From: Chitinophaga polysaccharea | GTDB lineage: Bacteria > Bacteroidota > Bacteroidia > Chitinophagales > Chitinophagaceae | Direction: 5' to 3' | Assembly: GCF_902150045.1 (NCBI RefSeq) | Contig: NZ_CABFVU010000001.1 | Coordinates: forward strand, 124,001-188,000 | Length of the DNA: 64,000 nucleotides | Part shown: positions 1-38,072 of the stretch, piece after piece | Layout of the letters: the number at the start of each line of letters is the position of its first letter | Numbering within the stretch: the stretch's first letter is position 1 | Notes under the pieces: model-generated | Databases searched by the model: none | The model's input: only the letters and a program-made list of their open reading frames with translations | Told to the model about the DNA's origin: nothing | Translations under genes and position numbers: made by a program

Positions 1-1732
1 TACCGGCCCGCTCAATGGCCGGTGAAAAGCGCGCTGATTTGGGTACCGCCCCTTTGCTGTCGTCCGTGAGCATAGTAGGGCCATAACAGCCATGCACCAT
101 TTTTTTCCAGTCCCCTTTCACCGTTACATGCTGGGCATCGTTGTCGTCCACCAGTATTTCGGCAGGACTGTTATCTGCCAGCGGATTAGTGCGCAGCATA
201 GTCTGCACTTTCTGTACATCTGCTTCCTGTACGGGAACACGCTGATCGATGGATACCACTGCTGCTGTGGCAGCGGACTGCGCCAGCACCATAAACACCG
301 GCTCCATACGGATAGAGCCATAGGCAATATGCGAGGCCGATAAACAAACCGGTACCAGCACATTTTTTGCGTCTTCCGGCTTTGGGATAATAGACCTGTA
401 AGATACCGGGTATGGCCCGAAGCCCCCTTTCTGCACATCTCCCTCATTTTTCACCATCCCATTTACCACTATGCGCTGGCAGTTATGGGAGTCCATTGTA
501 TAAGCGGCCATCCCCACGGCATCATTTACTTTTTCCCGGCCTTCGCAATTGGCCTGGGTCATCACGTAAGCGCCTATCATACGTCTTGCTTCACGTATAT
601 ACAGCTGCGGCGACCAGTGCCCATTGTCGGTGTACTCATCTTTCGGGTATCCCCATTGCAACATTTCCTTACGGAGATGGGCGGGTATCCGTTCATCATG
701 CCCTATAAAATATAGCAGCCCTTTAGTATAAAGCTCGTGCTCACGTACGATCTCTTTCCGGGTAGCGGGATCTGCTTCCGGGTAGTTGTAGTTCGTCCCG
801 ATCATATCAGTGGAAAAAGCCCCGTAATTGTTGATGTCCGTTTTCCCGTTGGGCATGAGGTCTATCTTGAGATTGGGTTTCAGCGCTTCCGGTTTGGTGG
901 CGTTCAGGAGACGGATCAGGAGCTCATAGCGCGACGGATCATAGTCTTCCGGTTTGGTAATAGGAATACGGTTTTCCGGGCGGTTGCTCAGGCATATCCT
1001 GAAATTATACGCCTGTACCTTTTTATCGCCGGAGCCTTGCGCTGCCAGCGTTTCGCTGCTGATACCCCATAACAGTCCGCTTTCAGGCTTGCCTGGTATT
1101 TTGTACGGGTCCACCCCATCGGGGAACTGGTGTTTATCGAGGAGCTGCACGCCGTTATAGGTTTCCTGGTACTGCGCGTTGGCTTCCCGGCCTATTGTAT
1201 AGGAGATACCGGCTTTTGCCATCAGGTCGCCTTCATAGGAGCAATCTATAAACATTTTGGCTTTCACCACCTGGGCAGCGGGGCCGTCTACTGTTATTTC
1301 CGTAACATACCCGTTTTGTTTTACTGCCTTGCTGATAGTATACCCATAAAGTACCTCTACGCCGGCAGCTTTGATATACTGCTGGAAGATAGCCTCCGCA
1401 ACGTGAGGCTCAAAGATCCACTGTTCCAGTTTCCCGTAATGGGCGCCGATCCGGCGGTAAAAATCGCGCGATAACCCGGTGATGGCATATTTGTTACCAA
1501 TATCGGTATAGCCCAATCCACCGGATGTAAGGCCTCCCAGGTGTTTTTCCGGTGATACCAGCAATACTGTTTTGTGTAACTGTTTTGCCGTATAAGCTGC
1601 TATTACCCCCGCAGAGGTGCCGCCGTATACGCAGATATCCACCTCCCTGGGAGGAGCCATAAATCCGTAACTGCCAAGCGGAAGGAGATAAGCTGTACAT
1701 AAAACGAGGATAGAAAAGAGTTTGATTTTCAT
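1..1732 (-). CDS. Secreted FAD-dependent oxidoreductase (PF12831-like), 3'-truncated by window edge
   Basis: An open frame runs from an ATG at 1732 down to the window edge without a stop, so at least 577 residues are present and the C-terminus is missing. The first 23 residues form a typical signal peptide (Lys-rich, then hydrophobic). A dinucleotide-binding glycine motif follows at about residues 37-42 (CVYGGTSAGVIAAYTA), then LGGLTSGGLGYTD, typical of the PF12831 FAD-dependent oxidoreductases often found in Bacteroidota glycan loci. The substrate cannot be read from the sequence. The protein is probably periplasmic. It is transcribed away from folD, with about 140 bp between the two starts. 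The family call is firm; the function is inferred. Confidence 0.85.
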   Translation of the reverse strand, partial: MKIKLFSILVLCTAYLLPLGSYGFMAPPREVDICVYGGTSAGVIAAYTAKQLHKTVLLVSPEKHLGGLTSGGLGYTDIGNKYAITGLSRDFYRRIGAHYGKLEQWIFEPHVAEAIFQQYIKAAGVEVLYGYTISKAVKQNGYVTEITVDGPAAQVVKAKMFIDCSYEGDLMAKAGISYTIGREANAQYQETYNGVQLLDKHQFPDGVDPYKIPGKPESGLLWGISSETLAAQGSGDKKVQAYNFRICLSNRPENRIPITKPEDYDPSRYELLIRLLNATKPEALKPNLKIDLMPNGKTDINNYGAFSTDMIGTNYNYPEADPATRKEIVREHELYTKGLLYFIGHDERIPAHLRKEMLQWGYPKDEYTDNGHWSPQLYIREARRMIGAYVMTQANCEGREKVNDAVGMAAYTMDSHNCQRIVVNGMVKNEGDVQKGGFGPYPVSYRSIIPKPEDAKNVLVPVCLSASHIAYGSIRMEPVFMVLAQSAATAAVVSIDQRVPVQEADVQKVQTMLRTNPLADNSPAEILVDDNDAQHVTVKGDWKKMVHGCYGPTMLTDDSKGAVPKSARFSPAIERAG

Positions 1733-1837
1733 ACGTGAATAAATAACCGCCCTTTGGAAGACCGCTATATGTATAAAGACGGAAAAAAATGTAACAGGAA
1801 TGCGTCTGCATGAAAAAAAATTATGACAGCCGCTTAG

Positions 1838-1845
1838 TATCTTTG
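1838..1845 (+). promoter_or_regulatory. Candidate -7 promoter box of folD
   Basis: The octamer TATCTTTG fits the Bacteroidota -7 consensus TAnnTTTG and lies 28 nt upstream of the folD ATG. The expected -33 region is only a run of A residues rather than a clear TTTG, so half of the promoter is unsupported. Confidence 0.5.
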
Positions 1846-1873
1846 TGATCTTCTACAAGATAAACACCTGCAT

Positions 1874-2725
1874 ATGACAGCTACGACAATACTGCTCGAC
1901 GGAAAAGCATTATCCAAACAAATGGAAGCGGAATTAAAGACCAGGGTGCAGCGCATCATTGAAAAAACGGGGGTAGTGCCGGTACTGGCCACCATCCTTG
2001 TAGGCGATGATCCCTCCTCTGAAGTATATGTGAAAATGAAAGGCAATGCGTGTGAGCGGGTGGGGATGACTTCCGTAAAAGCACATCTGCCCAAAGAAAC
2101 CACTACAGCAGAGCTAGTGGACACCATCCGGCAACTGAATACCGATCCCCGGATCTGCGGCATTCTTTTACAACACCCCGTTCCCCACCAGATTGATGAA
2201 AGGGCTTGTTTTGATAAAATAGATATTGATAAAGATGTAGATGGAGTCACCTGCCTGGGATTTGGCCGGATGTCGATGAGCGAGCCAGCCTATGGCAGCG
2301 CCACTCCTGCAGGCATTATGAAGCTGCTGAAGCATTACCAGCTGCCCCTTGCCGGCAAACATGCAGTGGTAGTGGGCCGGAGCCCCATCCTGGGTAAGCC
2401 GGTAGCCATGATGCTGCTGAATGAAAATGCTACCGTTACCATTTGCCACTCCCGCACTAATAATTTACCGGAGCTGATCAGGCAGGCCGACATTATAGTG
2501 GGCGCTGTAGGGAAGCCTGAATTTATAAAAGCGGAATGGATAAAAGACAACGCTATTGTAGTAGATGCCGGCTATCACAAAGGGGGCATCGGTGATATAG
2601 AACTTACCCCGCTGGTGAACCGGGTAGCCGCTTACACCCCCGTACCGGGTGGCGTTGGCCCAATGACCATTGCAACGCTGATTGCACAAACAGTGGAATC
2701 TGCCGAAAAAAAAATGTTGTCCTGA
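1874..2725 (+). CDS. folD: Bifunctional methylenetetrahydrofolate dehydrogenase / methenyl-THF cyclohydrolase
   Basis: FolD interconverts 5,10-methylene-THF, 5,10-methenyl-THF and 10-formyl-THF in the cytoplasm, supplying one-carbon units. The 283 aa length is normal for the family. Tyr52 and Lys56 in [14 protein letters not shown] match the catalytic Tyr/Lys pair of E. coli FolD. The NADP-binding segment [15 protein letters not shown] and the C-terminal signature [15 protein letters not shown] are both present. The gene is monocistronic: a TAnnTTTG box lies upstream and an intrinsic terminator follows the stop directly. Confidence 0.97.
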
Positions 2726-2728
2726 TAT

Positions 2729-2767
2729 AAAAACGGCTGCGGGCAACTAATACCCCCAGCCGTTTTT
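2729..2767 (+). terminator. Intrinsic terminator of folD
   Basis: Perfect 11-bp inverted arms (AAAAACGGCTG at 2729-2739 and its complement at 2757-2767) enclose a 17-nt loop. The 3' arm ends in a T run. It starts four bases after the folD stop codon. Confidence 0.85.
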
Positions 2768-2849
2768 GTCCCCTTTTGCCCGCCTGATTGTCGTATTCTC
2801 CCCCGCTTTGTACGGATATATCCACTTAAGTTTGTGGAAAAGGAAATCT

Positions 2850-3353
2850 ATGAGACAAGAACTGCTCCGCGAGGTAACTACCACCGGTGATACCCTTCAA
2901 CAGCTACTCAATTCTTTTAGCGAGGAACAACTGAATACCGCGCCCTTTGAAGGCAGCTGGACAGCAGCGCAGGTGGCATCACATATCTGCAAAGCCGGCG
3001 ATTGCGAAGTATTGTATGGCAGTACTGCGCCTTCCAACCGTCAACCGGATGAAAAGATACCCGCTGTGAAATCCGTCTTCCTGAACTTCGATACTAAAAT
3101 GAGCTCACCAGAATTTATACGGCCTGACGAGGGGCATCTTCCCAAAGAATCGGTACTGAAGGATACTGCTGCCATCTGGGAAAAACTGACCACTGCCGCC
3201 AATACGGTAAATCTTACTGAAGAATGTACCAGCTTTGAAGTGCCTGGTTTCGGGCCGTTTACACGTCTGGAATGGATCCAGTTTATTAACATCCATACGC
3301 AAAGGCATATACACCAGTTGCAACGTATATACAATACCGTTGTAAAGGCTTAA
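2850..3353 (+). CDS. DinB-like (DinB_2) putative metal-dependent protein
   Basis: A 167 aa four-helix-bundle protein of the DinB/YfiT type. His45 (in ASHICKAGD) and a C-terminal HxxxH pair (His149, His153) form the usual three-histidine metal site. Relatives include thiol-dependent transferases and damage-inducible proteins; the substrate is unknown here. The ATG at 2850 is preferred, with an AAGGAAA ribosome site just upstream. A longer frame starting at 2766 would begin inside the folD terminator and adds residues without family similarity. The protein is cytoplasmic, with no signal sequence. Confidence 0.8.
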   Translation: MRQELLREVTTTGDTLQQLLNSFSEEQLNTAPFEGSWTAAQVASHICKAGDCEVLYGSTAPSNRQPDEKIPAVKSVFLNFDTKMSSPEFIRPDEGHLPKESVLKDTAAIWEKLTTAANTVNLTEECTSFEVPGFGPFTRLEWIQFINIHTQRHIHQLQRIYNTVVKA

Positions 3354-3359
3354 AGCAGC

Positions 3360-3953
3360 TTATTTAATATTCACGCCAATGCCGATTTGTGCCTGCCGGG
3401 TTTTCCATTGGTAGCGGTCATCGATATCGTTCACATTCGTAAGGCCCAGTACATAACGGGCATAAACGTGCAGTATATCGAAGGTGAGTGTAGCGCCGGC
3501 AGCCACGCCAAAGTCGCTGCGCTTGAAAGCGTTACGGTCGTAGGTCAGGAGATTTTCATTATCGTAGAACAGGAAGCTGTATTGCGGGCCTGCGTTAACA
3601 GTAATCAATTTATTTACATTATAACGTAACAGCAGTGGTAAGGTAATATAGCTGAGCTTTATGGTTTTATTCGCGTTGTCGTTACTGGTATGGATATATT
3701 TTGCACTGAAATCGTCGCCGCGTTTTGGGGCTACCTGTGAAAACAGGAGCTCCGGCTGCAGGCCCCATTTCTTTGAAAAATCATATTCGGCATATACACC
3801 TAATCTTCCGCCCAGCGTATAATTTGATTTAATGCCCGCCCCATCCAGTTTAAACATGTTCAGATCCGCCTTGATGCCATAATGCAGTTCCTGCGCGCCG
3901 GCAGTACCCGCAAGGCAAACCAGCAACAATACTGTCAATAGTCGTTTTTTCAT
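3360..3953 (-). CDS. PorT-like outer-membrane beta-barrel protein
   Basis: A 197 aa protein with a clear signal peptide (MKKRLLTVLLLVCLAGTAGA, then Gln). The rest alternates polar and aromatic residues as in an eight-stranded barrel, for example LHYGIKADLNMF and GVYAEYDFSKKWGLQPELLF, and ends in a hydrophobic strand (IGIGVNIK). It matches the small outer-membrane beta-barrel (PorT/OMP_b-brl_2) group common in Bacteroidota. No specific function can be assigned. It converges with the DinB-like gene, with only six bases between the stops. Confidence 0.8.
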   Translation of the reverse strand: MKKRLLTVLLLVCLAGTAGAQELHYGIKADLNMFKLDGAGIKSNYTLGGRLGVYAEYDFSKKWGLQPELLFSQVAPKRGDDFSAKYIHTSNDNANKTIKLSYITLPLLLRYNVNKLITVNAGPQYSFLFYDNENLLTYDRNAFKRSDFGVAAGATLTFDILHVYARYVLGLTNVNDIDDRYQWKTRQAQIGIGVNIK

Positions 3954-4079
3954 AGCTGATGATTTTGACTATAAAGAAACGAATTGATCAGATGCGAATT
4001 GCTGCAGGCAGACCACTAATAGATGATCCTGCTGTTTTTCACTATCACGCCGGATATTTTCTCGGCAGATCCCCCCGGG

Positions 4080-5210
4080 TCATGACAGGTTAAGGTCTAC
4101 TTTCTTCCCGGTTTTAACTGCCTGGTAGATGGCATCAATAATTTTAAGGTCTTTTACCGCTTCTTCTCCATCTACCGCAACTACCGGTTGTTTTCCTTCC
4201 AGGATGATCCCGGCCATTTCTTCCATCTGCACAGTCTGATGGGTAACATGGGGCTGGGTAAGCTCTCCTTTATTGGTACGCCCGCGGATAGGGCCATAGC
4301 CTGTGGATGGTTGCATTTCTGCAAATCCTTTTTCACCGTTGAGATAAAAGCGGTCCAGGTAGTTCATGTTATAGGTGGACAGGCAAGAGGCAACTGCCCC
4401 GCCAGGGAAGCCCAACTGAAACTGGATGGTTTCATCCACCCCTTCTTTAAACTTCACGGGGTCGGTTCTTGTTTCCTGGGCCGTTACCCATATGGGCTCT
4501 TCTCCAATCATATACCGGGAGCCGTTAATAGCATAAATGCCGATATCCATTAAAGAGCCGCCGCCGGCCAGTTCTTTGTTGAGCCGCCATTGGGTGGGAT
4601 CGCCAATACGGAAACCGCATTGCCCCTGGAAGAACATGATTTTTCCGAAATCGCCGTTCTTACGCATACGGATCACTTCCAGTGTTTTGGGCTCAAAATG
4701 CATGCGATAGCCCACCAGTAATTTTACATTGGCTTTTTTGCAGGCGGCTATCATTTCCTGGCCCTGCCTGGCATTCAATGCCATGGGCTTTTCGCAGATC
4801 ACGTGTTTGCCTGCGGCTGCTATACGGATCGCCTCGTCGTGATGCAGGGCATTTGGTGTGGTAATGTATACCGCATCAATATCTTTATTATCTTTTATTC
4901 GGTCGAAGTTTTCGTAGTTGTAGCAGTTTTTTTCGGGGATAGAGAACCGGCTCTGCCAGTCCTTTATTTTAGATGGCGTACCACTGATCACGCCTACCAG
5001 TTTTGCTTTTACGCAGGCCTGCATAGCCTCTGCCACGCGGGTACCGTAACTGCCTAATCCCATGATAGCTACCCGTAGTACCGGGCCATCATAGTTTCCA
5101 AAGTCCTTGGCCCAGCCGGCAAGTGGCATCAGGGGCAGCACCATAGCGGAGGCGGCAATTTTTTGTATGAAGTTGCGACGAGTGTTCATGACGGGAGATT
5201 TGGGTTTCAT
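4080..5210 (-). CDS. Tat-exported Gfo/Idh/MocA family oxidoreductase
   Basis: A 376 aa NAD(P)-dependent sugar or cyclitol oxidoreductase. The N-terminus carries a twin-arginine signal (TRRNFIQKIAASAMVLPLMP), so export as a folded, cofactor-loaded protein is likely. The Rossmann motif VAIMGLGSYGTRVAEAM follows. The EKP catalytic-lysine motif of the family is visible in HVICEKPMALN. The C-terminal sheet domain is of normal length. The ATG at 5189 (MNTRRNF) gives a more typical Tat N-terminus than the one at 5210. The substrate is unknown; such proteins often accompany glycan catabolism. Confidence 0.9.
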   Translation of the reverse strand: MKPKSPVMNTRRNFIQKIAASAMVLPLMPLAGWAKDFGNYDGPVLRVAIMGLGSYGTRVAEAMQACVKAKLVGVISGTPSKIKDWQSRFSIPEKNCYNYENFDRIKDNKDIDAVYITTPNALHHDEAIRIAAAGKHVICEKPMALNARQGQEMIAACKKANVKLLVGYRMHFEPKTLEVIRMRKNGDFGKIMFFQGQCGFRIGDPTQWRLNKELAGGGSLMDIGIYAINGSRYMIGEEPIWVTAQETRTDPVKFKEGVDETIQFQLGFPGGAVASCLSTYNMNYLDRFYLNGEKGFAEMQPSTGYGPIRGRTNKGELTQPHVTHQTVQMEEMAGIILEGKQPVVAVDGEEAVKDLKIIDAIYQAVKTGKKVDLNLS

Positions 5211-5378
5211 TTGATACCTTAATAATACAAAAATTATTAGTAGGATGCGGAGAAAAGTAAATGCATATCATAAATACCTATTCATTAATTTACCGCGAAT
5301 TGTGCTATCATCACCGCAGGTTGATCATTGATGATGCACACATACTGTTATTCCTTTGCATTATTCAAATCTGTCAAA

Positions 5379-6368
5379 ATGAGAATAGTAGCTATAGAAG
5401 AACATGTATCATTCCCGGAGATGACCCGTCATCTTCCTGCAGATATATCAGATAAACAAACGCCGTCCGCTGCCGCCACTCAAATGATGCCTAAACTGGC
5501 TGATATTTCAGGCGAACGTTTAAACGCGATGGACGGGTCCGGAATATCCATGCAGGTATTATCGGTTGAAAATACGGATGTAAACCTGTTAAACAGCACC
5601 AATGCCCCCGCATTTGCTGCAAGGTATAATGATCTGCTGGCGGAAAAAATCAAAGATTATCCCAACAGGTTCACTGCATTTGCACATCTTCCCATGACAG
5701 CACCGTTGGCTGCGGCTGATGAGCTTGAGCGCACGGTGATGTCTTACGGTTTTCGCGGGGCAATGATCAGGGGACTTACCAACGGCGAATTCCTGGATGC
5801 TCCTAAATTTACACCGGTTTTTGAAAGAGCCGAAAAATTGAGGGTTCCCATTTATATTCATCCCGGCGTTCCTCCTAAAACAGTGATGGATGCTTATTAC
5901 AGCAACGTTGGCGGCCATACAGGCCCTTTTGATGCCATTGCCTGCTGGGGATGGGGCTGGCATTCAGAAACCGCGATCCATGTGTTACGGCTGCTGGCGG
6001 CAGGTGTCTTTGACAGGTACCCTGGGTTAAAAATAATCATCGGTCATATGGGCGAAATGTTACCCATGATGTGGGCACGATCAGACAGGGCCTTTCAACC
6101 CGGCAATGGCGGATATAATCAACGGACATTAATCGATACTTTCCGGCAGCAACTATATATTACTACCAGTGGCTTTTTTACACAGCCCCCACTCCGGATT
6201 GCGCTGGACACTATTGGAATAGACAATATTATATTTTCCGTCGATTATCCTTTCAGCAATAACCAGATGGGTATTGATTTTTTGAATGAGATCCAGCTTC
6301 CCCCGGAACAGGCGGAGAAGATTGCACATGGGAATGCGGATAAATTACTTGGGCTGCAGGTATCATAA
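5379..6368 (+). CDS. Amidohydrolase-2 family metal-dependent hydrolase/decarboxylase
   Basis: A 329 aa TIM-barrel protein of the amidohydrolase-2 family, which includes gamma-resorcylate and 5-carboxyvanillate decarboxylases. Visible marks are the N-terminal metal motif variant IEEH, the barrel motif IYIHPGVPP, IIGHMGEMLP, and the distal aspartate in FSVDYPFSNN. The ATG at 5379 is chosen because family members begin with this strand (MRIVAIEEH); a start at 5328 adds 17 unrelated residues. The AraC-type regulator begins ten bases after its stop, so the two probably form an operon. The aromatic-acid substrate is inferred from family only. Confidence 0.85.
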   Translation: MRIVAIEEHVSFPEMTRHLPADISDKQTPSAAATQMMPKLADISGERLNAMDGSGISMQVLSVENTDVNLLNSTNAPAFAARYNDLLAEKIKDYPNRFTAFAHLPMTAPLAAADELERTVMSYGFRGAMIRGLTNGEFLDAPKFTPVFERAEKLRVPIYIHPGVPPKTVMDAYYSNVGGHTGPFDAIACWGWGWHSETAIHVLRLLAAGVFDRYPGLKIIIGHMGEMLPMMWARSDRAFQPGNGGYNQRTLIDTFRQQLYITTSGFFTQPPLRIALDTIGIDNIIFSVDYPFSNNQMGIDFLNEIQLPPEQAEKIAHGNADKLLGLQVS

Positions 6369-32406: not shown

Positions 32407-33642
32407 TTATTTCCTTACCACACTGCTATAAATAACTGTGCCATTCCGGATGGTATACGCCACGTCGGAAAAGTGGCGACTGTCTGCATGCGGGTCGGCT
32501 TTCAGCAGCACAATATCCGCATCCATTCCCCTGGCTATAATACCGCTGTGCTGTGCCACTCCAAACCTTTTGGCGGGAGCTGTTGTCAGGGAAGCAAGGA
32601 TCTGATCAAAGCTCATTCCTGCTTCCGCCATGAGCCTGAATTCGTCGGACGTATCATAATCGGTTACATACCCTACATCTGTGCCGAATAAAATTTCACC
32701 ACCTGCACCCGCATATGCACCCAGTTGCTGCACGGCGGTTGTCATTAACGGGTTCGTTAGGGGCAGTTGCTTTCTTTCCAGTTCCCATTTGTAAAGTTTC
32801 AGTGTGGGAATAAGCGCCACTTTGTGCAACAACAGCTGGTCCGTTTCGTTTTTTGTCCAGCTATGATAACCATCCGGCGCCACATGCGCAAGGATATCCA
32901 CTCCCCCGGCAAGCGCAATATGCATTCCTGTATCGGCAGTAGGGTGCGCAAACACCGGCTTATGAAATTTATGCGCAGTACTGGTGGCAGCCCTTATGAT
33001 GTTCATAGGCATTGGCACAATGCCGTGTCCATCCGGTGATGCAGACATGATCTTAATTCCATCTGCACCGGCCCTGATCTGCCTGGTAACATGCGCTACC
33101 GCCTCATCCGGCGTGTTCATTTCCGGCAGGGAAAGCGGCCGGATATAGAAAGGGTTGCCATGAGGAGGCACAAAGGGAGCGCCTACTGTAAGCATCGCGG
33201 GACCGTTTACTTCGCCAGACATTACCCTGGCACGAAGCGCCAGCAGGTTAGGATAGTTCAGCGCAGCCAGGTCAAATACATGTGTAAACCCACGGCTGTT
33301 GATCATGCTGTCCATTTGCCTGCTGAGCACAGCCGCCGGCTGTTTATCCGCATGATCCCATTTGGGCTCAATAAAATGCACATGGCAATTCCAGAAACCC
33401 GCCATCATCACCAGTCCTTTACAGTCTATTACTTTCATTTGTGCAGGCACTTTTACCTGTTTATCATTGCCTACTGCTGTAATTTTACCGTTCCTGATAA
33501 TCACCACTCCTGATATAATAGGTAAAGTTTGAGGAGCAGTATAGATGGTAGCCCCTACCAGTGCAAGCTCCTGCTGTGTGGGAAGTTGTGCATAGGCACT
33601 ACCCGAAAGAAGAGTAAGTAAATAAAGCAAGTATGTTTTCAT
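32407..33642 (-). CDS. Secreted amidohydrolase (imidazolonepropionase/prolidase-like)
   Basis: A 411 aa protein with a signal peptide (MKTYLLYLLTLLSGSAYA). Metal-site motifs are HVH in FWNCHVHFIEP, His in KPVFAHPTADTG, His in DILAHVAPDGYH and the catalytic Asp in ILFGTDVGYVTDYDTS. The C-terminal GIIARGMDADIVLLKADP closes the composite sheet domain typical of the family. The substrate is unknown; secreted members include dipeptidases and lactonase-like enzymes. Confidence 0.88.
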   Translation of the reverse strand: MKTYLLYLLTLLSGSAYAQLPTQQELALVGATIYTAPQTLPIISGVVIIRNGKITAVGNDKQVKVPAQMKVIDCKGLVMMAGFWNCHVHFIEPKWDHADKQPAAVLSRQMDSMINSRGFTHVFDLAALNYPNLLALRARVMSGEVNGPAMLTVGAPFVPPHGNPFYIRPLSLPEMNTPDEAVAHVTRQIRAGADGIKIMSASPDGHGIVPMPMNIIRAATSTAHKFHKPVFAHPTADTGMHIALAGGVDILAHVAPDGYHSWTKNETDQLLLHKVALIPTLKLYKWELERKQLPLTNPLMTTAVQQLGAYAGAGGEILFGTDVGYVTDYDTSDEFRLMAEAGMSFDQILASLTTAPAKRFGVAQHSGIIARGMDADIVLLKADPHADSRHFSDVAYTIRNGTVIYSSVVRK

Positions 33643-33850: not shown

Positions 33851-33954
33851 TACAGGAAATATTGTTGGTGAGCTTTGCTGTTTTTAATAATGCAATCATC
33901 TTAGTACCTGTAGTACCATTGTATTATCAATACACACAGCCCTGAAAAAAACCA

Positions 33955-35226
33955 TTATTCTTTATAAAAATTCAAACGATAGAAAATACCTGCCTGGAAA
34001 CCGATCCATAGTTTGTTACTACGGCTCGCATCGGGAGAGAAATTATTGCTGATGGTATAAGGCGGTTTAAAATACTTTATATTGGCCAGTGCCTCGTTTT
34101 CTTCCTTGTTCAACGGAGCTGGTTTGTTGTTCCTATAATAGGTTGTTTGCAGGCTGTTCAATGCAGCGCCAACCTGTAACCGCCACTGATTGCCGATTTG
34201 CTTCTCTGCTACCAGCGATAATTTATGCAGCTGCGCCTTCACCCTTATGGGGATGTAGCCCAGGGAATCGTAACCGGCAGCTTCTATGCGGCCCGTGGTG
34301 GCTTGTGCATGCAAACGCCAGCTGCCTGGTAAACGGATGGATGTACCTACACCATACCGTAACATGGAAAAAGAGAAGTTAGTACTCCAGCAACCAATTA
34401 CATAAAGGAATGGCAGTCCTGCCTGGATATTGGGATTTACATAAAAAGATTCGTCGGCCACCATACCTGCGGCGGCATATGGCTTAAACGAAAATATGGG
34501 TTCTTTGTTTTCTGTGCCACCGGCAACAGGTGTATGCCCACCTGCTGACCGCAGGCGCTCCACTAAAGTTGCTGCGAAAGATCTGCGGGGCGACCGGTAG
34601 ATGTTTGCAATAGTGTCTTTAACATTCGCGGTAGCGGGGAATGGAATACGAAACCCGGCCGGTTTTACATTAGAGGAATCTACTGTTGCTTCAAACAATC
34701 CTGAATACATCGTATCCTGTTTCGTGGCAACTGACATTGATAAAAAAGTTACGGGTAAGGAGGCGGCCTGCCTGGCCGGCAGCATGGAAAGCTGCCTGTT
34801 AACAAAACGGAGGGGCTGTATTACCTTAGATGGTTTAACTGCAGCAGACGTTCTTTTAGAAACAAGAAGCGCCGGGTTATCTACAAAAATAATATGGCTT
34901 TCCAACGCGCGGTAACCCATACCAGTAGATTCACGAAGATCTCCGAGCAGCCGTGATAAGGGCTGCCGGCCTTTCTTTATATGCACCACGGTAGTGCCGG
35001 GGAATTTCCGGGTGTTCACCGAAAACCGGATACCGGCCTGTTTGCTCACCAAATGCAATAATTCATCCAGCTGCATATCCGCAGCTGGAATGCTCACTTC
35101 TTTCCGGAGATTTACCTTCGCCGTTTGCGCGGAAACCATGGTAGTGATAAAGGTGAACCACACCATTAAAGAAAATTTCGATAGCAGCCTAGTTACATCC
35201 TGCCCCGCTGATATATACCCGGTCAT
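33955..35226 (-). CDS. Stand-alone STN-domain protein with a barrel-like C-terminal half
   Basis: About 423 aa from the ATG at 35226 (35247 is also possible). A signal helix (SLMVWFTFITTMVSA) is followed by a secretin/TonB N-terminal (STN) domain: IPAADMQLDELLHLVSKQAG then IRFSVNT and the LESHIIFVDN end. A linker of about 100 residues leads to a C-terminal region rich in alternating strands that ends in GFQAGIFYRLNFYKE, like an outer-membrane barrel. No TonB plug or SusC barrel is present. The start lies inside the fecR coding region (38-nt overlap), implying translational coupling. It may act as the signal-input partner of the upstream FecR. Confidence 0.7.
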   Translation of the reverse strand: MTGYISAGQDVTRLLSKFSLMVWFTFITTMVSAQTAKVNLRKEVSIPAADMQLDELLHLVSKQAGIRFSVNTRKFPGTTVVHIKKGRQPLSRLLGDLRESTGMGYRALESHIIFVDNPALLVSKRTSAAVKPSKVIQPLRFVNRQLSMLPARQAASLPVTFLSMSVATKQDTMYSGLFEATVDSSNVKPAGFRIPFPATANVKDTIANIYRSPRRSFAATLVERLRSAGGHTPVAGGTENKEPIFSFKPYAAAGMVADESFYVNPNIQAGLPFLYVIGCWSTNFSFSMLRYGVGTSIRLPGSWRLHAQATTGRIEAAGYDSLGYIPIRVKAQLHKLSLVAEKQIGNQWRLQVGAALNSLQTTYYRNNKPAPLNKEENEALANIKYFKPPYTISNNFSPDASRSNKLWIGFQAGIFYRLNFYKE

Positions 35227-36154
35227 TCTCAAATCTGCATTGTACATTCAACGTAATTGAAATCACCTCAAAAACGTATTGTATTGGTTTATTCTCAAAA
35301 GCGCTGCTCATAGTGCAGTTCGCGAGGCGTTCATTTTCAAGTATCACTTTAATGCCGTATGCCTTTTCCAGTTGTGCCATGATCTCTTTCAAGGAAGCAT
35401 CTTCAAAATTAAAGATCCTCGTGGCGTATCCCGTTTCATTAGGGTTAACGCTGTTACCCATACTGAACCGCTGCGTACTGGTATCATAGATGAGCTGTTG
35501 CCCTGTCTTTACCGTAATAGCGGTATCTCCCTTACCCACCTTTACTGCGCCGCTGCTAACCGCTACATTAATAACACCGGCCAGCTGGCGTACATTAAAG
35601 GCAGTGCCCAGTACTTCAATACGGAGATCTCCCACGGATACTATAAACGGTTTTAGCGGATCAGAAGTTACATTAAACCAGGCTTCGCCCGTTAATTGTA
35701 TTTGCCGGGTCTCTTCCGGCGGGTATTTTATGGAAGAATGACTGTTCAATACCACCAGCGAGTGATCGGGCAGGGTATCGCGGTAAATGCCGGTAGTGGT
35801 TTGCCGGATAACCACAGGGGAACCCTTATGCCCGGACTGCGATGGCTGTAGCACAAAATAGAGCACAGCGGCACCCAACAGCAGCAGCAATGCAGCCGCA
35901 ATGCGCCAGGCAGTTACCCGGGGCCGTTGCCTTGTTGCCTGTTCTTTGATCTCCCAGAGCAGCGCCGCTTTATCAGGCAGCTGGTAACGCGGAGTACCGG
36001 CTGCATTGTCCCACACCGCGGCTGCTTCATCGTATAACCTGCGGTGGTCCGGGTGCTGCCTGACCCAGTCATCCACCGCCATGGCTTCTTCCGGGGAAGC
36101 TTCCCCCGAAAAGTATTTGCCTAGTAACCCGTATGACAGCTCCCCGTTGCTCAT
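35189..36154 (-). CDS. FecR family anti-sigma factor (second system)
   Basis: A 321 aa protein. The N-terminal FecR_N-like helical part is about 85 residues, then a transmembrane helix (RIAAALLLLLGAAVLYFVL). The periplasmic FecR domain contains VVLNSHSSIKYPPEE and LTGEAWFNVTSDPLKPFIVS; a DUF4974 C-terminus follows (ASLKEIMAQLEKAYGIKVIL). Its ATG overlaps the sigma-factor stop by one base (TAATG), so the two are translated together. Confidence 0.93.
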   Translation of the reverse strand: MSNGELSYGLLGKYFSGEASPEEAMAVDDWVRQHPDHRRLYDEAAAVWDNAAGTPRYQLPDKAALLWEIKEQATRQRPRVTAWRIAAALLLLLGAAVLYFVLQPSQSGHKGSPVVIRQTTTGIYRDTLPDHSLVVLNSHSSIKYPPEETRQIQLTGEAWFNVTSDPLKPFIVSVGDLRIEVLGTAFNVRQLAGVINVAVSSGAVKVGKGDTAITVKTGQQLIYDTSTQRFSMGNSVNPNETGYATRIFNFEDASLKEIMAQLEKAYGIKVILENERLANCTMSSAFENKPIQYVFEVISITLNVQCRFENDRVYISGAGCN

Positions 36155-36708
36155 TATGGTTGTAATAAAAGTAAAATAAATACTGCGGTCATTGTATCGG
36201 ACAGGTTTTCCCGGAGGATCTTTAAAGCCTTTCCCACCTGGGCTTCTACGGTTTTTACAGACAATCCCATTTCCCCGGCAATTTCTGCATACTTCTTTCC
36301 TTCAAACCTGCTTTTGGTGAAGATCAGCTTACATTGCGGCGGCAGGCTTTCAATGCCTTCCATGATCCGGCGGTAAGCTTCCTTGTCAATAAGCGCATCC
36401 CGGAATTCACCAGCAGTATGATTATTGGTTGTTATATACTGCTCTTTTATTTTCTCATGTCTCTTTACATTCAGGCAATAGTGGTAGATAGCGGTATATA
36501 AATAGGATTTCACCGACTGCTGCTCATCTATGGCGGTCCTTTTCTCCCAGAGCTTCAGGAAAACCGCCTGCACTGCATCCTTCGCATCATCATTATCTTT
36601 CAGTATGGTGAAGGCATAGCGGTGCAAACCTTCAAAATACGTATGAAAGTAGGCTGCTATCTGCCCGTACAGGTCATTTTCCTTACCAATATTTTCGTCC
36701 AATACCAA
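36154..36708 (-). CDS. ECF RNA polymerase sigma-70 factor (second system)
   Basis: A 184 aa sigma factor. Region 2 is seen in FHTYFEGLHRYAFTILKDND and AVQAVFLKLWEKR; region 4 in LPPQCKLIFTKSRFEGKKYA and EIAGEMGLSVKTVEAQVGKA. No ATG is available near the N-terminus, and an in-frame stop lies a short way upstream, so a TTG start (36708 or 36702) is required. It should be held by the FecR encoded directly downstream. Confidence 0.88.
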   Translation of the reverse strand: MVLDENIGKENDLYGQIAAYFHTYFEGLHRYAFTILKDNDDAKDAVQAVFLKLWEKRTAIDEQQSVKSYLYTAIYHYCLNVKRHEKIKEQYITTNNHTAGEFRDALIDKEAYRRIMEGIESLPPQCKLIFTKSRFEGKKYAEIAGEMGLSVKTVEAQVGKALKILRENLSDTMTAVFILLLLQP

Positions 36709-36851
36709 ACCGGTTACCGTGATTGTAGTGATAGTTCAGGAATAATACACTTCATCATTCAAATACCCTTACTTCTTCCAAAAATAATTTTTTAATGATT
36801 CTCCATAAGGGTAAAAAGACATTGATGTGTATTAATCCAAATATCTGTACC

Positions 36852-38072
36852 ATGACGAAAACCATCAGCAAAAGAAATCTTGCATACCTGGTAGCCGGTG
36901 TAGCCATCATTCTTCTTAATACTATTTCATGTAAAAAAGAAAACAATAGCAACGAGCCCGGTCCGGGCCCGGGTGAGCACCCGGTTCCCAATAACCCCTC
37001 TGCTCCTAACCTGCCCGGAACGCTCTACGACTACGTGGGCACCCGTAATAACATGCCTCCCTATATGCAGGCATTTATGAACGCCAACCCAACACTGGAC
37101 AATACTCCCGCAGGTAATCCCATTACCAATGCAGGGGCCACGCTGGGCAGGGTGCTGTTCTACGATAAGTCATTATCACTGAACAATACGAAATCCTGCA
37201 GTTCCTGTCACCACCAGGACAAAGCCTTCACTGATGGCGTAGCCCGGTCCGAAGGGTTTGAAGGAAAAGTTACCCGCAGGAACAGCATGCCGGTAGTGAA
37301 TCTCCGCTTTTTCCGGCTGGCCACCATGTTCTGGGATATGCGGGCCAAAGATCTTGAAACGCAAACCCTGATGCCCATCCAGGACCACATAGAAATGGGA
37401 ATGCCTTCACTGGCAGCCCTGGAAACAAAGCTAGCCGGCATCAGTTATTATCCTCCCCTGTTTAAAGCCGCTTTTGGCAGCGAGGCTGTTACCTCCGATA
37501 AAATAGCCAGGGCACTATCCCAGTTCCTGCGAAGCATTGTTTCCTTCAACTCCAGGTACGACCAGGGAGTAGCTACCCAGTTCAGCAATTTCACCCCTGC
37601 TGAGAAAAACGGGCTGCGGTTGCTGCAGGTGGATTTCTGTACCGAATGCCACAGCGATTTGTCCACCTGCCGGCCAGGACAAACTTCTTCCTTCCTTATT
37701 GTGGACAACACCGGTCTGAATACGGGGATTGGCTCCAACAACGGGCTGGAAAGCAATTATACCGATAAGGGCATTGGTGAAATTACCAATAAACCTGCCG
37801 ATCAGGGGACATTTAAAATCCCCAGCCTGCGGAATGTAGCGCTCACTGCCCCGTATATGCATGACGGCCGCTTTGCCACCCTTGAAGATGCCATAGAACA
37901 TTACTCCACCGGTATCAAACAAAATCCCAATATCGGGATACAATTTTCCGGAATGCAAAACGAGGGATTACTGTTTTCTGCAAAAGACAAGAGCGATATC
38001 ATCGCGTTCCTTAAAACACTTACGGACCAATCGCTGGTAACAGATCCGAAATATGCGGACCCGTTTAAGTAA
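36852..38072 (+). CDS. Di-haem cytochrome c peroxidase / MauG-family lipoprotein
   Basis: About 406 aa from the ATG at 36852. A signal sequence ends in a lipobox (LLNTISC). Two CxxCH haem sites are visible: CSSCHH from residue 116 and CTECH from residue 263. The segment APYMHDGRFATLEDAIEHYS carries a distal Met ligand typical of the family. It reduces hydrogen peroxide or oxidises a partner protein in the periplasm. A Gly/Pro-rich stretch follows the lipobox as a tether. The gene is monocistronic and divergent from the ECF sigma gene. Confidence 0.93.
   Translation: MTKTISKRNLAYLVAGVAIILLNTISCKKENNSNEPGPGPGEHPVPNNPSAPNLPGTLYDYVGTRNNMPPYMQAFMNANPTLDNTPAGNPITNAGATLGRVLFYDKSLSLNNTKSCSSCHHQDKAFTDGVARSEGFEGKVTRRNSMPVVNLRFFRLATMFWDMRAKDLETQTLMPIQDHIEMGMPSLAALETKLAGISYYPPLFKAAFGSEAVTSDKIARALSQFLRSIVSFNSRYDQGVATQFSNFTPAEKNGLRLLQVDFCTECHSDLSTCRPGQTSSFLIVDNTGLNTGIGSNNGLESNYTDKGIGEITNKPADQGTFKIPSLRNVALTAPYMHDGRFATLEDAIEHYSTGIKQNPNIGIQFSGMQNEGLLFSAKDKSDIIAFLKTLTDQSLVTDPKYADPFK

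Follow-up and report, generated by a model that had tools for sequence, protein, structure and literature searches.

An STN domain on a predicted small outer-membrane barrel, encoded with FecR and a sigma factor in Chitinophaga polysaccharea: a candidate signalling system without transport

We describe a three-gene operon within a 64,000-nucleotide stretch of the Chitinophaga polysaccharea genome (contig NZ_CABFVU010000001.1, positions 124,001 to 188,000; hereafter the window). It encodes an extracytoplasmic function (ECF) sigma factor, a FecR-type anti-sigma factor and a protein that we name StnB, in which an N-terminal STN domain is joined by a long linker to a region predicted to fold as an eight-strand beta-barrel. 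With a probability of roughly two in three, we read this locus as a transport-free variant of FecIR-type signalling, in which an STN sensor borne on a barrel, FecR and the sigma factor control their own operon together with a MauG-like gene. The support is computational and concerns the domains, the fold, the conservation of the operon, the promoter and its predicted targets. We infer the location of StnB in the outer membrane, the binding of its STN domain to FecR, a signal and ligand, the direction of control, recognition of the promoter by the sigma factor and the function of the barrel as a sensor. The coordinates of all features are collected in Table 1.

Table 1. Features of the stnB locus, in window coordinates.
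Feature	Position	Strand	Basis
ECF sigma factor gene (TIGR02985 Sig70_bacteroi1), 184 aa	36154..36708	-	Pfam/NCBIfam above cut-off
fecR, FecR-type anti-sigma factor, 321 aa	35189..36154	-	Pfam above cut-offs
stnB (name coined here): signal peptide, STN domain, linker, predicted 8-strand barrel, 430 aa	33955..35247	-	Open reading frame, structure model
StnB STN domain, residues 48-125	34873..35106	-	AlphaFold2 confidence mostly > 90
StnB linker, residues 126-250, low confidence, Thr/Ala/Pro/Ser-rich	34498..34872	-	AlphaFold2
StnB predicted 8-strand beta-barrel, residues 257-425	33973..34479	-	AlphaFold2 confidence mostly > 90
Predicted operon promoter, before the sigma gene, TAAGGG-N15-GTGTATT	36744..36771	-	Upstream alignment, genome search
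Second promoter copy, facing the divergent MauG-like gene	36806..36833	+	Genome search, 13/13 loci
MauG/MbnH-like di-haem cytochrome c peroxidase gene	36852..38072	+	CCP_MauG, E 2.8e-48
Decayed promoter TAATGG-N16-GTGTATT, directly after the stnB stop	33929..33957	-	Intact in 17/17 relatives having the methyltransferase gene
Methyltransferase gene remnant, first 36 codons	33792..33899	-	tblastn to the copy at locus L045

The initial annotation had proposed that the trio combines a sigma factor and FecR with a lone STN protein, and this is borne out by domain searches for the first two and by relatives and a structure model for the third. The window sigma protein, whose gene likely starts at a TTG codon, matches Sigma70_r2, Sigma70_r4_2 and TIGR02985, and FecR matches DUF4880, FecR and FecR_C, all above the Pfam or NCBIfam cut-offs. 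In FecR, DUF4880 is followed by a transmembrane segment (judged by eye), the periplasmic FecR domain (PF04773, E 3.5e-16) and a C-terminal STN-like domain (PF16344, E 1.6e-16). The third protein has the proposed architecture of STN domain, linker and barrel-like half; its length was given as 420 residues and is 430 codons counted from the first ATG, while a later ATG, perhaps Met8, may be the real start. As also proposed, no TonB receptor gene follows: the next gene on the minus strand encodes an amidohydrolase (32407-33642).

The three-gene arrangement exceeds chance, given its conserved order and the overlap of its frames across relatives. A family search covered 148 related genomes and gave matches in 78, many of them STN domains within receptor frames of 1100-1200 aa; among the matches listed we picked 60 loci by frame length (370-590 aa), making a StnB family of 61 members with the window. 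About ten weaker places that were listed were left out (for example G013, G078, G065:C9, G045, G005, G050 and G006). The order sigma-fecR-stnB, on one strand, which the initial annotation had suggested looking for in relatives, is found at 59 of the 60 fetched loci. The fecR and stnB frames share 59 nt in the window, and the first in-frame stnB start precedes the fecR stop in 58 of the 59 relatives having the three-gene order. At the exceptional locus (L084), a stnB homologue stands with neither sigma nor fecR nearby, and its neighbour on the opposite strand is a gene of the 2-oxoglutarate (2OG)-Fe(II) oxygenase group c17. The relatives are only 20-40% identical in StnB, yet keep the same architecture, and in the 61-member alignment the two ends are conserved and the middle is variable. 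A class-wide profile search matched 109 of 395 genomes, mostly at STN domains that belong to long receptor frames; the profile fitted both ends of a few frames of about 590-660 aa.

The structure of StnB was predicted with AlphaFold2 from the 61-member alignment, and 223 of the 430 residues reached a predicted local distance difference test (pLDDT) value of at least 90. A helix spans the signal peptide, which, like export, was judged by eye. Residues 50-123 form the beta-alpha-beta fold of STN domains; residues 48-128 align with the PupB domain in its PupR complex (6ovk_B) at Z 8.8 and 2.2 Å over 80 residues, and the domain aligns with that of PupA (2a02) at the same Z score. The low-confidence linker ranges from 75 to 292 residues (median 172) across the family. 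Profile searches of solved structures by sequence gave nothing useful for StnB, and Foldseek with the whole model placed larger barrels and autotransporters on top at low TM-scores (template modelling scores), so that domain-wise alignment was used instead. In this way the barrel region (252-429) matched OprF (4rlc, Z 12.8), OmpA (1qjp, 12.3), NspA (1p4t, 12.3) and OmpW (11.6), as well as a designed transmembrane barrel (13.2). Pfam matches in the family at E <= 0.01 comprise OMP_b-brl in 14, STN in 6 and FecR_C in 1 of the 61 members, and at this threshold an OmpA-type peptidoglycan-binding domain matched none of them.

We predict from the model that the C-terminal half of StnB is an eight-strand outer-membrane barrel with a lipid-facing hydrophobic belt. 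A membrane-type barrel is favoured because hydrophobicity alternates along the strands in the sequence, and not because of the fold search: the family-average alternation is 2.22 against 1.05 ± 0.27 for shuffled columns, and none of 5000 shuffles reached 2.22. This alternation also makes a soluble C-terminal fold, which was considered as a refutation, unlikely. The chain ends in Phe in 20 of the 61 members. If the STN domain and linker are periplasmic, three inner turns of 2-3 residues and outer loops of 4, 4, 6 and 36 residues follow from the model. The earlier proposal that a small outer-membrane barrel stands in for the 22-strand receptor thus gains from the predicted eight strands and their alternation. 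It also gains from the relatives: stnB could have been the broken N-terminus of a TonB receptor, and we rejected this candidate because all 60 fetched loci have frames with their own C-terminal barrel region and none is a full receptor or a fragment of one.

How such a protein might signal can be set out by analogy. StnB would be anchored in the outer membrane through its barrel, with its STN domain on a long disordered leash in the periplasm that would let it reach the inner membrane and dock on the STN-like C-terminus of the co-encoded FecR. The signalling domain of PupB is reported to be bound jointly by the juxtamembrane and STN subdomains of PupR (PMC7186176); the window FecR has both periplasmic domain types, which we count in favour of the proposed model. 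In the Fox system, as reported in PMC11637429, the signalling domain binds the anti-sigma factor when no signal is present and shields it from proteolysis. By analogy with these two precedents, the STN domain of StnB may hold or shield FecR in the resting state, and FecR would keep the sigma factor inactive, until the barrel senses something. A change in the barrel, caused by a ligand at the cell surface or by a different condition of the outer membrane, would then alter the STN-FecR contact, FecR would be processed and the sigma factor released. The free sigma factor would read TAAGGG-N15-GTGTATT at its own operon and at the divergent gene for a MauG-like di-haem peroxidase, and in relatives the same trio would drive other enzymes through matching promoters.

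The promoter gives this scheme its predicted targets. In the aligned upstream regions of relatives, TAAGGG-N15-GTGTATT is conserved upstream of the sigma gene, and its recognition by the sigma factor is suggested by the sequence shared between sigma and target genes, in the window and in relatives. The perfect form TAAGGGT-N14-GTGTATT occurs only twice in the 7.6-Mb genome; both copies lie in the window, one for the operon and one for the MauG-like gene, so that the predicted regulon is very small. A facing copy with 11-13 of the 13 box letters is present at all 13 loci that have a divergent MauG gene, the window included, while a copy scoring at least 11 is found at one of the 47 loci lacking that gene. 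We considered a large regulon in the window genome and rejected it: the one-mismatch sites, three in number, all lie inside reading frames, and sites with up to two mismatches do not rise above a reversed-pattern control. The MauG-like peroxidase is the one other gene that the window sigma factor is predicted to read. Its protein matches TIGR04039 at E 9.4e-76, yet remains under the cut-off of that model. The frame opens at 36795, and a likely start at 36852 lies downstream of the promoter and also gives a lipoprotein-like signal (by eye).

Other enzymes are predicted targets in relatives. At 17 loci stnB is followed by the gene for a class I methyltransferase, which has the promoter directly before it in every case; in 47 genomes of the same genus, 11 strong full-length matches to this methyltransferase (50-100% identity) were found, every one beside stnB. 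Other groups of loci have an altered -10 box before the sigma gene (GTGTTAT-like, or ATTGTCT) and a like box before a neighbouring gene. If the -35 consensus and the locus's own -10 are matched with no more than two differences, such an own-type promoter precedes the gene for a radical S-adenosylmethionine (SAM)/SPASM protein at 7 of 9 loci (group c9), that for a second radical-SAM/SPASM protein, which comes with a Gfo/Idh gene (c14), at 6 of 7 (c15), a glycosyltransferase gene at 2 of 2 (c46, with c45) and the 2OG-Fe(II) oxygenase gene at 4 of 7 (c17). Promoters before targets are thus incomplete outside the methyltransferase and MauG groups.

Promoter classes were compared at 54 loci, as no usable promoter of their own was found for six of the 60 (L046, L057, L077, L078, L088 and L089). 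A search allowing a single difference gave 39 extra own-type sites, 36 of them before a gene, against means of 0.8 and 0.1 in 20 shuffles of the boxes. The predicted -10 class follows the lineage of the sigma factor: the nearest sigma has the same class at 51 of the 54 loci (200 label shuffles gave a mean of 21.3 and a maximum of 35), and at 48 of 54 when the comparison is restricted to sigmas that differ by more than 30%. At the level of whole genomes, 15 that were selected because their operon has the window's promoter class, and that carry at least one site each by construction, hold 35 perfect sites (22 at the operon) and none of the reversed pattern. The 13 others comprise four before a distant radical-SAM plus Gfo/Idh operon, five before a gene for a flavin adenine dinucleotide (FAD) amine-oxidase-like protein, and four in or against genes. 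Fifteen comparison genomes, hand-picked (three have no family match, the rest weak ones with a best E no stronger than 2.8e-6 and, among those listed, of receptor type), hold three sites, all antisense within genes. A pair of radical-SAM/SPASM and Gfo/Idh genes with a stnB-type promoter lies far from stnB at loci L177-L180 (genomes G017, G018, G066 and G033), and a related pair adjoins stnB in other groups. The window genome gave no homologue of the radical-SAM target c15 in a search made without a positive control; it does have a homologue of the amine oxidase, and no site of the stnB type was found at that locus.

The window also preserves traces of a second target. The decayed promoter after stnB and the methyltransferase stub behind it indicate that the operon probably once had a methyltransferase gene, since lost, and that the MauG promoter is what remains. 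When the 321-base stretch holding the stub is searched alone, tblastn with the copy at L045 gives E 9e-15 and 75% identity over 36 aa, and genome-wide the stub is the best match to the methyltransferase (E 1.3e-8, 73% over 37 aa); three other matches in the genome are partial and about 30% identical. No further methyltransferase match lies downstream of the 36 codons.

Several of our observations weigh against a dedicated barrel sensor of this kind. Taken alone, the window StnB matched neither an STN nor a barrel model in Pfam or NCBIfam. Soluble barrels also align with its C-terminal half (the designed mFAP2b at Z 11.8, rhizavidin at 9.3, an avidin-like protein at 9.1), so the fold match by itself leaves room for a soluble barrel; strand 6 has no alternation of hydrophobicity, and strands 3, 5 and 7 have less of it than the others. 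Conservation in the two longer outer loops, L3 and L4 (mean identity 0.39 and 0.34), does not exceed that of the turns. Among the 13 copies facing a MauG gene, three score 11, which equals the maximum of the shuffles, and one of these has a 16-base spacer; across the window genome there is no excess of sites at up to two mismatches (48, against 68 for the reversed pattern), and the promoter sites in related genomes are not mutually independent. The distance correlations between the sigma, FecR and StnB proteins, 0.91 each, are expected from shared descent and are hence uninformative. The output enzymes vary from group to group, and no common signal can be named for them. Finally, the transducer of the Pseudomonas Fox system is itself reported to be cleaved (PMC11637429), so that the tether need not be permanent.

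Among the alternatives, the one that survives best is that StnB senses the state of the outer membrane and has no part as a ligand receptor: correct insertion of the small barrel would be what is sensed, and the outputs would repair or remodel the surface. We hold this to be unlikely. Misfolded outer-membrane proteins are sensed in the sigma-E pathway, and barrels of eight strands as a rule lack an open pore. On the assumed topology, all but one of the four outside loops are predicted to be only 4-6 residues long, and the loops show no special conservation. The methyltransferase, glycosyltransferase, Gfo/Idh and radical-SAM genes among the predicted outputs would suit such a role, whereas the MauG and 2OG-oxygenase outputs have no obvious theme of surface repair.

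Less probable still is that StnB acts as a decoy or tuner, a reservoir of STN domains that binds FecR or competes with the STN domains of TonB receptors and so damps signalling, with the barrel serving only as an anchor. In Pseudomonas Fox, overproduction of signalling domains is reported to inhibit signalling and to stabilise the anti-sigma factor (PMC11637429); in addition, the window genome has 57 Pfam STN matches, in some cases a pair within one frame and in at least one case the C-terminus of a FecR. However, the polar residues conserved in the barrel (E266, N271, R297, T317, D327 and N364; Q418 is conserved too) exceed what a mere anchor would lead one to expect, stnB is paired with one particular fecR at all but one of the fetched loci, and a promoter class that follows the sigma lineage speaks for a closed, dedicated circuit. 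The conserved barrel and operon thus make a pure decoy less likely. Lastly, stnB can hardly be the remnant of a truncated SusC-type receptor kept by chance, for although its STN domain has a detectable relationship to that of SusC receptors (the weak matches include receptor frames 1100-1200 aa long), 60 divergent relatives keep the architecture and, bar one, the operon, no Plug or TonB-receptor barrel model matches any of the 61 members in Pfam at E <= 0.01, and the model has eight strands.

The transport-free reading places the locus close to known systems. With FecI/FecR/FecA-type systems (FecA, FpvA, PupB/PupR, FoxA/FoxR, and those linked to SusC in Bacteroidota) it shares an ECF sigma gene beside fecR, an STN-like C-terminus of FecR, an STN domain on a predicted outer-membrane partner and a predicted self-regulated operon. 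Unlike the transducers of those systems, StnB has neither a plug nor a 22-strand barrel, hence no expected role in transport; its leash between STN domain and barrel is 75-292 residues long, and the predicted outputs are enzymes instead of the receptor's uptake genes. The trio would therefore work like FecIR signalling, but would not belong to it in the strict sense, as its partner is modelled as something other than a TonB-dependent transducer. The barrel is predicted to have the same eight-strand fold as OmpA, OprF, NspA and OmpW (Z 11-13) and differs from them in being fused to an N-terminal STN domain and encoded with a sigma/anti-sigma pair. VreA, of the VreA/VreI/VreR (PUMA3) system of Pseudomonas aeruginosa, is the nearest precedent that we found. 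It is likewise an STN protein lacking the TonB-receptor barrel, and, as described in PMC2729926, its C-terminus is modelled as TolA/TonB-like and the protein is mostly soluble, whereas the C-terminus of StnB is predicted to be a barrel; the same source reports a vreA reporter that did not respond to overexpression of VreI, while a sigma-type promoter is predicted for the stnB operon itself. Among the entries listed in searches of the open literature, none describes a small-barrel STN protein in a sigma/FecR operon, which is weak evidence of novelty.

The same genome has a second receptor-less sigma-FecR-STN operon (L111, G000:C2:1104800-1110800, positions 729-5394). Its 602-aa protein resembles StnB in being encoded by the third gene, in its N-terminal STN domain, its predicted C-terminal eight-strand barrel and the lack of a Plug match, and differs in that a carboxypeptidase-regulatory-like domain (CarbopepD_reg) and GVQxAG repeats replace the disordered leash; a 379-aa paralogue of its C-terminal part follows. 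Strong matches to it, with a best E < 1e-80, occur in 51 of the 54 same-genus genomes searched. L111 and its relatives suggest that STN partners carried on barrels may extend beyond the StnB family. In other Bacteroidia families, STN proteins of 454-463 aa are encoded after FecR genes at loci L096 and L104, with one weak OMP_b-brl_2 match, and on this evidence the small-barrel type may reach past the StnB family. At L113 (1690-2670; G000:C3:675050-675166), a 354-aa frame matches Pfam STN through its end, which is a FecR C-terminus, and is not a lone STN protein; the gene overlaps that of the STN/Plug receptor that follows. The case illustrates that the C-terminus of FecR can itself score as STN.

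What these observations mean can be outlined for Chitinophaga as a whole. Tentatively, and with somewhat more against the proposal than for it, we suggest a family of cassettes in which a leashed eight-strand sensor, FecR and a sigma factor re-pair with different output enzymes and adjust what is displayed at the cell surface. Each cassette would have one or two dedicated outputs marked by its promoter (di-haem peroxidase, methyltransferase, radical-SAM plus Gfo/Idh, glycosyltransferase, 2OG oxygenase or FAD amine-oxidase-like protein), and sensing would be uncoupled from nutrient uptake. Outer-membrane sigma signalling usually relies on a TonB receptor that also transports its ligand. Transport is not expected of a small closed barrel, and the StnB family would therefore uncouple the two functions and reveal how little an outer-membrane sensor requires. 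Moreover, a very small regulon and its target genes can be predicted from the promoter sequence, which makes the pathway readily testable. An orphan FecR system is described in Leptospira, and no receptor bearing an N-terminal signalling extension is known for it (PMC12155086). Orphan FecR systems such as this one could have barrel-borne STN partners, and would be worth re-examining in silico.

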